Shown here piece by piece: positions 13,459-27,133 of a stretch of 28,456 nucleotides of DNA; position 1 is the stretch's first letter; every line of letters starts with the position of its first letter. The DNA is taken from positions 1-28,456 of the IMG/VR virus record IMGVR_UViG_3300011969_000004. One strand, 5' to 3'. The position numbers were made by a program, and so were the translations under genes. The notes below the pieces were generated by a model, which ran no database searches, had not been told where the DNA came from, and saw only the letters and a list, made by a program, of their open reading frames with translations. Source of the stretch: a virus.

Positions 13459-15039
13459 TCATTCATCGTAGAAGTGGTTGTTGGTTACCTCGATCTCGGG
13501 CATCTGGTAGTCCGTCGTAATTGCGACTGCCAATGCAAGGCTGTCCGGGTAGTCGTCGTGCGCGTCGGCCTCATTCGGGGCCTCCGCCAGCACGTATGGT
13601 CCCTCGAACTTCTTGATTAGGTCTTCCATCTGAAGGCGGAATCTCCGGTATGTCTTGAGTCGACGCGTCTTGGCGTGGGCGGGCCATCCGATCTTCCCGC
13701 GCTGCACCAACTCGGACAGGTGCTTCCAGCGCTTGGACTGGTCCGGCCTCTGGGATCCAAGGAGTTCTATCGGGATGTGCGGAAGCAGCACCTTGAGGCG
13801 TCCGCCGACGACATCCCCAACCCCACCTGCGTCGACTCCAATGGCGAAGATGCTGTAGTTGGCCAGGAACTCGACAATGCGAAAGTACTGCTCCTCCCAC
13901 TCCATGCCGGTCAGATCAAGCCAGTTGAGAATGCGGTGCTCGTAGTACCCGAACTCATCCGGATGGTCCCAGTCGACCCAGACCACCGTCACGATCGTTG
14001 AGTCCACCTTGCGGGCACAGTCAATACCCGCCACGCAGGGGGTCTTATGGTAGGAGTGGACGATCTCCATCGACTTGTCACCCAACTCGTCAAGTCTTTC
14101 AGAGGTGACGAACATGCCCTGGTCCAGTAGCCACATGATTCGGTAGGCCAACTTGAACTCGTTAGAGTCCTCGCCAATTCGAAGGAGTTCCTTCTTGACG
14201 AATCTGGCGTAGTTGAGGCTCCACCTTGCTACCTCTTTCCAGTCGGCTTCGAAGTGGTTTTGCTTTGCACCACGACGAGTGGCCAACCGCTTGTTCGCCT
14301 GGATCGTCTTGAAGAAGACGCCCTTCGTATAGGATGGGGTTCCGGTGAAAACCATGGTCGCGTTGGTGGCTGCACCCATAGGGCCAATCGACTTGTTGAC
14401 CATCTTCTCGTCTGCGCCCTGGCACTCATCGACAAGGATCAGATGGTAGGTGCGCCCCTCAATAATCGCCCGGGGGTGCGCAGTCTGCTTTCGGGCTAGT
14501 GACCCGCACTTCTTCAGCGTGACAGTCTTAGCCCCACCACCCACGGCCTCATCAATCTCCGGGTCTGCCATAAACTCCAGTGCCCGCTCAGAGGTAAGGC
14601 GCTCCACAATCCGCCCGAAGAGAGTACTCGCCTGCTCCTCCACGGGGGCGAAAGCACCAACCCACAGACCCTCCTTGAACTTGTCAAGAAGGGAGGGAAA
14701 GAGGGGTGCGAGTCGAGGAAGCATGATCATGCATGCGGCCACTACGTTGGCGATAGTCTCGCTCTTGCCTGACTGGCGTGACCACAAAGCGCTCAGCGTG
14801 GCGCCATCACCAAGCACCAGAGACTCGATAAGCCTCTCGGCGAAAGGGGTTTGGTAGGGCCTAAGTGGGTGCCCAGAGATCTCGTCAACCACGATGAGCA
14901 TCTTCTCGACGATCTTGTCGACTGCCGCCTGAGACACGTCGTCTAGAACGACCTCGATGTCTATACGGGCTTGATGCTCTTCCGGGGTTTCATCTTCGAC
15001 GAAATCAAGATCCTCGTCGAGCAGCGCTGTTTCCGTCAC
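13459..15039 (-). CDS. Terminase large subunit
   Basis: 526 aa, GTG 15039 with GAGGAA 4-5 bases upstream. The ATPase domain has Walker A SRQSGKS (residues 87-93), Walker B LILVDE (200-205) and the coupling motif FTGTPSY (231-237). The nuclease domain has a first acidic motif GIDCARKVDST (Asp340), a second IGVDAGG (Asp403) and a final DAHDDYPDSLALA (around Asp495-499). The enzyme drives DNA into the prohead and cuts it at the end. Length and motif order are typical, so it is probably active. No small-subunit gene is obvious upstream; the 61-aa Cys-rich gene at 15127 is not an evident candidate. Confidence 0.95.
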   Translation of the reverse strand: MTETALLDEDLDFVEDETPEEHQARIDIEVVLDDVSQAAVDKIVEKMLIVVDEISGHPLRPYQTPFAERLIESLVLGDGATLSALWSRQSGKSETIANVVAACMIMLPRLAPLFPSLLDKFKEGLWVGAFAPVEEQASTLFGRIVERLTSERALEFMADPEIDEAVGGGAKTVTLKKCGSLARKQTAHPRAIIEGRTYHLILVDECQGADEKMVNKSIGPMGAATNATMVFTGTPSYTKGVFFKTIQANKRLATRRGAKQNHFEADWKEVARWSLNYARFVKKELLRIGEDSNEFKLAYRIMWLLDQGMFVTSERLDELGDKSMEIVHSYHKTPCVAGIDCARKVDSTIVTVVWVDWDHPDEFGYYEHRILNWLDLTGMEWEEQYFRIVEFLANYSIFAIGVDAGGVGDVVGGRLKVLLPHIPIELLGSQRPDQSKRWKHLSELVQRGKIGWPAHAKTRRLKTYRRFRLQMEDLIKKFEGPYVLAEAPNEADAHDDYPDSLALAVAITTDYQMPEIEVTNNHFYDE

Positions 15040-24858: not shown

Positions 24859-24902
24859 AATAGTTCGGTAAACAGCGAAAGTACTAGGTTTCCCGAACTA
24901 TT
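24859..24902 (-). terminator. 10-bp hairpin directly after tRNA-Phe
   Basis: aatagttcgg (24859-24868) pairs with ccgaactatt (24893-24902). The upstream arm begins at the last base of the tRNA CCA end. It could be a terminator or a processing stem for the 3' end of the tRNA. Confidence 0.6.
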
Positions 24903-24977
24903 GGCTCTCTTGGTGGGACTCGAACCCACGTCCTCCCCCAGTTCATGAGGGCGCTTTTCCTATTACGCTACAAGAAA
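24902..24977 (-). tRNA. tRNA-Phe (GAA), unusual anticodon loop
   Basis: 76 bases including an encoded CCA. Acceptor TTTCTTG/CAAGAGA pairs fully (one G-T). Canonical T8, A14, G18G19, T33, TTCGAGT loop and five-base variable region are present. The T stem is GTGGG/CCCAC and the anticodon stem CCCTC/GGGGG. The loop ATGAACT gives anticodon GAA. Odd points are a mismatch in the D stem (G12-A23), C at position 37 and discriminator G73, where Phe tRNAs usually have A73. The tRNA is certain, its amino-acid identity less so. Confidence 0.85.
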
Positions 24978-25444: not shown

Positions 25445-25543
25445 GGTGTTGCCTTTCTGGAGGAGGGGGAGGAACTATTTGGGTGCAGGCGGGGAGTGTA
25501 TGCCCCTCTTACGCCGACGACTCCCTGTCACCGGACCTGTCCG

Positions 25544-25918
25544 TGGAGGTGGCGGGAATTGAACCCGCGTCCTTCGGTGATCTGATCTTGAACGTACAAC
25601 CATTCTGCTCACGTGGCAGTCCGTACCGCTGGTTGCCGGTCTCTCCCGGCTGCCGTCCCTTCATCTTTCAGGGATCTCGGAGGAAGTTCTGTTGCCCCGC
25701 AATTATCCTCAGTGCGGCTCCGTGGCCTCTCGGCTCGGTGGTTTGCCTGCTAAGACTCTAGGTCAGACGGACACGAGTGAACGTGCCGTGCTGAACTGCG
25801 AGAGGTAGTCGACGGGTTCTACGTTGCCAGTTATTGGCGTTGGGTGTTTTCAAGTCACTACCCATGACCGGTTGCTTCTCAATCATCACGGAGCCGAAGT
25901 CGAAACCAAGGCACCCCC
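25544..25918 (-). ncRNA. ssrA: tmRNA with a phage-type tag reading frame
   Basis: 375 bases. The 5' end GGGGGTG pairs with CACCTCC at the 3' end, followed by A73; G3-T70 is the alanine identity wobble. The signature GGTTTCGACTTCG follows the 5' arm, as in actinobacteria. The 3' part has a T arm GCGGG-TTCAATT-CCCGC. No CCA is encoded. The tag frame probably resumes at GCC 25838 (ANNWQRRTRR...) and stops at TAG 25758-25760: 26 residues, containing LPLAV internally and ending VRLT, without the usual C-terminal LAA. tmRNA rescues stalled ribosomes with SmpB. The class is sure; the tag frame is inferred. Confidence 0.93.
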
Positions 25919-26022
25919 GAGATGAGCAGTTAGACGCATGCTCAGGCCGCGAATCACGCCGGGAGGAGAGTCTAGGCAAAGCCGAAGCCCGGTTGTCTCT
26001 TGTCATCATTGTGATTGTCGCG

Positions 26023-26094
26023 CTGACCTACTAGGACTCGAACCTAGATCGCCGGATTAACAGTCCGGAGTCTTACCAGTTAGACGACGAGTCA
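26023..26094 (-). tRNA. tRNA-Asn (GTT)
   Basis: 72 bases to the discriminator G; no CCA encoded. The anticodon stem CCGGA/TCCGG carries loop CTGTTAA with anticodon GTT. D stem GTCT/AGAC and T arm CTAGG-TTCGAGT-CCTAG are perfect, and G73 fits Asn. The acceptor stem is weak at its lower end (T-G, C-A, G-T). It is the first RNA of the operon that continues into the tmRNA. Confidence 0.9.
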
Positions 26095-26755: not shown

Positions 26756-27133
26756 TTACCGGCGCCCCTTGAGGGCCATGAACTCCTGGATGACCGCGTT
26801 CGGGAGGCGCCCACCGGACGAAACCTCTCGGCCCTGCTCCTTCATCCACTTACGCACATCCTGTGAGGTGAAGGAGCGCCCACCCGTGCCCCTCAGAACC
26901 ATGCGCCCCCGTGAGTTGAGTGAGGTGATCGCGCGGCTACGCCGTCCCACCTCTACGAACTGGGCCAGGGCATCCACCAGCGCCTGCCGGTGCTCGCTGC
27001 ACAGATCAGCCGAGTATGAGTCCGGGGCGAGAGCGAACTCCGTCTCGTTGTTTCCCGGAACGGACTGTCCGCAGGCTTTTTCATTGCGGGCGGTACGTAT
27101 CTTGAAATCACACCGCTTCTCGATGATGTCCAT
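26756..27133 (-). CDS. Lsr2-like nucleoid-associated protein with an N-terminal zinc-finger-type motif
   Basis: 125 aa, ATG 27133 with AAGGAG 8 bases upstream. The middle (ETEFALAPDSYSADLCSEHR, then QALVDALAQFVEVGRRSR) resembles the Lsr2 dimerisation half. The C-terminus (TSQDVRKWMKEQGREVSSGG, then RLPNAVIQEFMALKG) matches the Lsr2 DNA-binding domain, in which a short Gly-Arg loop enters the minor groove of AT-rich DNA. Cys8, Cys21, Cys45 and His48 could hold zinc. Phage Lsr2-like proteins may silence genes, counter host Lsr2 or act in lysogeny. It has its own promoter at 27178-27206 and a strong terminator. Confidence 0.8.
   Translation of the reverse strand: MDIIEKRCDFKIRTARNEKACGQSVPGNNETEFALAPDSYSADLCSEHRQALVDALAQFVEVGRRSRAITSLNSRGRMVLRGTGGRSFTSQDVRKWMKEQGREVSSGGRLPNAVIQEFMALKGRR

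Follow-up and report, generated by a model that had tools for sequence, protein, structure and literature searches.

The DNA analysed here, the 28,456 bases of an IMG/VR record from a soil phage, which we call the window, very probably encodes a complete phage tmRNA that resumes translation at the GGC codon at position 25828 and adds the tag GNVEPVDYLSQFSTARSLVSV with the help of the host AlaRS and SmpB, the LVSV end of this tag being probably still a degron. The gene, its pseudoknot 1 (PK1), the resume codon, the tag frame and the end other than LAA are read from the sequence. Phage-encoded tmRNAs are established (PMC4131195), and the GN-type tag is, judged by its motif, a new tag family within this known kind of gene; it can be defined as GN[VI]E[KP]V[DN][FY]L...LV. 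Recognising it puts right two errors about this phage tmRNA, a misreading that was plausible and a miscall by ARAGORN.

The full-length gene occupies positions 25541..25918 on the minus strand, where the original prediction had rightly placed a tmRNA. It is recovered by Rfam RF00023 (25541-25918, 83.0 bits, E 4.8e-31, model positions 1-374, for a gathering score of 47) and by ARAGORN (25543-25918, minus strand), and it sits between tRNA-Asn(gtt) upstream (26022..26094) and tRNA-Phe(gaa) downstream (24902..24977), both on the minus strand and both found by ARAGORN and Rfam. The 5' strand of the acceptor stem, GGGGGUG (25912..25918, minus strand), pairs with CACCUCC (25545..25551, minus strand), which is followed by the discriminator A at 25544, and the stem includes the G3.U70 alanine identity pair; all seven of its seven pairs form in the window and in both relatives presented below, with compensatory changes. 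A further helix, ACGGCACG/CGUG(U)CCGU (25767..25789, minus strand), spans the tag end with eight pairs, one bulged U being excluded, and the Rfam alignment puts it on the same helix of the model. A gene for an Lsr2-like nucleoid-associated protein lies near the tmRNA (26756-27133, minus strand).

Besides the tmRNA, the window codes for a terminase, a portal, a major head protein, a tail tube, a contractile sheath and a tyrosine integrase. The terminase large subunit (13459..15039, minus strand), which was the query used to find the relatives of the phage, is 61-62% identical to those of the Streptomyces phages BRock, Alone3, LuckySocke, GiJojo and pSt2308; because of this resemblance, the window probably belongs to a BRock-related actinophage with an actinobacterial, probably Streptomyces, host. 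The terminase gathered 57 loci from IMG/VR, and a search of most of their records with RF00023 revealed a full tmRNA in one relative, G041. The second, in IMG/VR record G047 (locus L218), was found with a degenerate pattern made from the tag common to the window and G041. Since the terminases of G041 and G047 are homologous to that of the window (75% and 68% identical, respectively), the three form one lineage. The G047 terminase large subunit (L284 1495-4149, minus strand) is split by about 370 residues inserted in frame (CLDADT...QVSN/S), which look like an intein. A blastn search of phages with the window tmRNA gave no match and its neighbour proteins, used as queries, returned no relatives. 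Relaxed tag patterns recovered from IMG/VR just the two known relatives and chance matches without a tmRNA, and from genome contigs two matches, neither with a tmRNA call; one composite query found no GN-type tag in 50,697 phage records.

The position of the resume codon follows from the comparison of the three RNAs. PK1 (25841..25868, minus strand) can form with both stems in the window, G041 and G047: S1 is UGGGU/ACCCA, UGGGC/GCCCG and UGAGC/GCUCA, and S2 is GUCA/UGAC, GACU/AGUC and GACG/CGUC, so that compensatory changes are seen among these three RNAs, the stems having been picked by eye and their pairs then checked. The E. coli RNA resumes at a codon 12 nt downstream of PK1, with A86 four bases ahead of it; a C or U in place of A86 leaves the RNA inactive in a kanamycin assay (PMC2481249). 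In the window, GGC (RNA position 91, window 25828) lies exactly 12 nt past PK1 and directly after UAACU (25829..25833, minus strand), whose U at -5 and A at -4 are the equivalents of E. coli U85 and A86; among all positions up to 20 nt past PK1 in the window, this GGC alone combines U at -5 with A at -4. The relatives use the same GGC, after UACUC or UAACU. We read the resume codon as GGC at 25828, with high confidence in the frame.

The original prediction had translation resume at GCC 25838, in the frame ANNWQRRTRRLPLAVQHGTFTRVRLT running from GCC to TAG (25758..25838, minus strand), and thus gave the RNA a tag of 26 residues with a basic, polar VRLT end. This frame is real: it is open for 26 codons and has the A-N start of many tags, an open frame of that length being by itself weak evidence. 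However, GCC lies just 2 nt past PK1, its -4 position is occupied by C instead of A, and in the two nearest relatives the frame reads RQHREGQLPRCSP or WQR before a stop, that is, it is cut short or unlike; resumption at this codon is scarcely credible. The covariation folding suggested for placing the resume codon, carried out here on PK1 in three RNAs, spoke against GCC and in favour of the GGC of the LVSV frame, which starts ten bases after GCC. If translation resumed instead at the GCA that begins one base further on than GGC, it would leave a minimal tag, Ala-Thr followed by UAG. This register has A at -4 in the window, the Rfam alignment sets the consensus GCA one base past GGC, and two-residue tags occur in some bacteria (PMC11915505); but its A at -5 in the window is disfavoured in E. 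coli (PMC2481249), in G041 the base at -4 is C and the register runs on without an early stop, and the conserved GN frame would be left unexplained, which makes the GCA reading very unlikely. ARAGORN, for its part, calls the tag AGQQNFLRDP in the window (25668..25700, minus strand). This call is an artefact, situated 140 nt past PK1 after a chance UAAUU followed by GCG, and no frame of its type exists in the aligned sequence of the relatives. As A occupies -4 in all 40 ARAGORN tag calls, and seems to be built into the program, its presence there is not independent evidence.

The frame that begins at GGC runs over 25766..25828 and is closed by UGA at 25763..25765, both on the minus strand. It is kept in G041 and G047, where the tags at the same place are GNIEKVNFLGAVRDANLVTV and GNVEKVDFLSGSRDLVLA, each followed by a stop, and where ARAGORN itself reads this frame. 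The nine gap-free codons that start with GGC give GNVEPVDYL, GNIEKVNFL and GNVEKVDFL in the three phages, whereas the two other frames are interrupted by stops or agree less well in their residues across the three tmRNAs. When the columns were shuffled, 50 of 20,000 shuffles matched or exceeded the observed protein similarity, the frame being tested here on codons that had helped to choose it. The tests of covariation and of frame are small because three tmRNAs of the GN tag family, its entire known membership, are available. The tags end in LVSV in the window and in LVTV and LVLA in the relatives, each before UGA. The conservation of the nine codons and the matching ends therefore identify the tag as GNVEPVDYLSQFSTARSLVSV. 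It has 21 residues counted from GGC 25828, not the 26 announced, and its end is the hydrophobic LVSV, not a basic and polar one; the second frame with an LVSV end, which the original prediction had mentioned, exists and is the correct alternative, conserved in the relatives. The atypical C-terminus that had been claimed stands because no frame of the window ends in LAA. A standard LAA frame had been named in advance as the finding that would speak against it, and an LAA-type end is likewise absent from the window tag and from those of both relatives.

In the following model we infer that this RNA is charged with alanine, that it uses SmpB and that it tags proteins in cells, as well as what becomes of these proteins. 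The host AlaRS would charge the phage tmRNA with alanine via G3.U70, as expected because this pair and the discriminator A are kept. The charged RNA would work with the host SmpB, which is presumably used because a search of eight phage records (the window, G041, G047 and five others, the window, G041 and perhaps G047 being fragments) turned up no SmpB gene. It would enter the ribosomes stalled in infection and switch them to GGC 25828, alanine and the 21 residues would be appended, and release would occur at UGA. The aliphatic LVSV end would still be a degron, with a strength or a protease preference unlike that of the host LAA-type tag. Streptomyces host tags carry an LAA-type end. The Streptomyces tag has two C-terminal Ala residues (PMC2635970), and in S. 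lividans the ssrA variants ending in AAV, LVA and ASV speed the degradation of a reporter about 15-, 2- and 3-fold (PMC5765039). The original prediction had expected rescued peptides to meet another fate than with the host tag. By analogy, LVSV is probably a degron of altered strength, a changed degradation rate being likelier than an escape because this uncharged aliphatic end resembles the variants LVA, AAV and ASV. A tag of changed strength could have consequences for the cell, since in S. coelicolor a degradation-resistant tag complements an ssrA deletion in part only (PMC2635970).

In the same lineage, a second kind of RNA takes a different form. Five isolated BRock-cluster Streptomyces phages and the IMG/VR relative G035 gave no full tmRNA match and contain instead a 77-nt RNA that consists of the tRNA-like domain (TLD) of tmRNA only, without a tag frame, and that combines G3.U70, GGTTTCGAC, a short covarying P2 and a GGAC T-arm. 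The approximately 80-nt RF00023 matches in BRock-type phages had been considered as tRNA noise; this reading was rejected, for they represent a separate conserved RNA. Copies of about 77 nt lie at KX925554.1 97144-97220 (minus strand), OR725497.1 17977-18053, PP725410.1 17025-17101, PV588686.1 33356-33432, OR725492.1 18155-18230, MT701595.1 42932-43009, G035 60434-60510 and in loci L245-L282. The RNA also occurs in Streptomyces phage Shaeky, and in 38 IMG/VR contigs according to a pattern scan that required the CCGCAYGCGG hairpin, which is invariant in most copies. Across an alignment of 24 distinct sequences, standard pairs fill 96.2% of the paired cells; all seven pairs of P2 (7/7) change on both sides, with a covariation score of 0.582 versus <=0.100 when slid, and G3.U70 is kept in all 26 distinct copies. 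A covariance model made from these RNAs scores 65-96 bits in the five isolates and G035 and at most 34 bits in the window, G041 and G047, where its best matches lie inside their own tmRNAs; the matches of 21-34 bits that were checked (window, G041, G047 and Gordonia phage GMA2) all fall in full-length tmRNAs. The records of BRock, Shaeky and GiJojo have no tmRNA annotation at the 77-nt RNA.

The full tmRNA and the 77-nt RNA were never found together in the records searched, and several large relatives (80-110 kb) have neither. The two share a neighbourhood, since, upstream of the terminase and on its strand, the 77-nt RNA lies at 7-8 kb and the full tmRNAs at about 10-12 kb, which places both within 7-12 kb. 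One phage example of a TLD-only RNA, that of DS6A, had been reported earlier (PMC4131195, PMC11915505), and tmRNA is reportedly inhibited by a similar molecule (Mao 2009 as cited in PMC4131195), an effect that may come from the titration of SmpB (PMC4131195, PMC11915505). Could the RNA of the window, too, chiefly compete with the host tmRNA or block it, for example by binding SmpB, its tag hardly mattering? The occurrence of TLD-only RNAs in the same region of close relatives and the inhibition by such a molecule are in keeping with this idea; yet PK1, the frame signal and a conserved tag are all retained in the window gene, although mere competition would need none of them, and we regard the idea as improbable. 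Beyond the tagging tmRNA that we propose for the window, it can tentatively be imagined, though we hold it rather doubtful, that a single lineage has evolved two takeovers of host trans-translation, one in which the tmRNA tag diverts peptides from the LAA pathway and another in which the 77-nt RNA blocks the host tmRNA. That a tag-less tmRNA is widespread in actinophages, and alternates with a full tmRNA inside a single lineage, suggests that phages target trans-translation.

Among the known tmRNAs, the commonest tag length is 10 residues (PMC11915505), and 32 of the 40 distinct ARAGORN tag calls in this analysis end in AA. The comparison with other phage tags confirms that the window tag departs from LAA, but not that it is exceptional in this, other actinophage tags being hydrophobic and non-LAA as well. 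The mycobacteriophages of cluster C (Bxz1 group; Asterius tag ATDTDATVTDAEIEAFFAEEAAALV) carry, like the window, a tmRNA near tRNA genes, with a tag of 25 aa ending in AAALV that is likewise long, aliphatic and non-LAA; this tag is nevertheless unrelated to that of the window, with its GCA start and acidic ATDTDATV core, and belongs to another phage lineage. An LAA-type end is typical of tmRNA, not universal or defining, since cluster C tags lack it too. The tags of Mycobacterium phage Phabba (ANDNDATVTEADFAEIEAFANDSVLV, end SVLV) and of Gordonia phage GMA2 (end EAFANSEAAALV, AAALV) are long, V-ended and non-LAA like that of the window, but they possess the cluster C core, and no terminase relationship links either phage to the window. 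The window tag is devoid of this core, DATVTxADFAEIEAF, common to cluster C, Phabba and GMA2, and the core of the Phabba tag used as a query finds Phabba, Phrappuccino, Settecandela and GMA2. Now that non-LAA tags are seen outside the mycobacteriophages, in an unrelated lineage, it becomes possible to test why phages carry a tmRNA of their own.

In GMA2 (KR063281.1), a full tmRNA (L234 422-833, 94.6 bits) is not annotated as such, and its tag, which ends in EAFANSEAAALV, falls within an overlapping hypothetical protein, GMA2_58 (475-606); a Pistol ribozyme match (L234 1143-1199, 56.8 bits) lies among the tRNA genes of the same phage. Gene 9 of Mycobacterium phage Phrappuccino (L296 614-775; also in Settecandela), a 'hypothetical protein' downstream of a queuine tRNA-ribosyltransferase gene, contains a segment that matches the Phabba tag at 82% identity and may be a misannotated tmRNA. 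In Streptomyces phage TunaTartare (L237 56-834), an endonuclease VII gene situated within the tmRNA match stretches it to 779 nt, and the tag region is still ANYKNASAYALAA-like.

The Streptomyces BE-type phages Faust, Sham and Forrest resemble the window in having a phage tmRNA and many tRNA genes, whereas their tags (ANSKNASAYALAA, ANSNFALAA) are of the ordinary short ALAA kind. The TLD-only tmRNA of Mycobacterium phage DS6A, set apart here by its description, is the kind of molecule also present in the BRock-cluster relatives of the window, whose own gene retains the whole mRNA-like domain. Finally, the E. coli ssrA RNA has in common with that of the window the fold, PK1, the 12-nt spacing, the U-A frame signal and G3.U70; in place of the E. 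coli tag ANDENYALAA, the window offers a GGC resume codon, 21 residues and an LVSV end.
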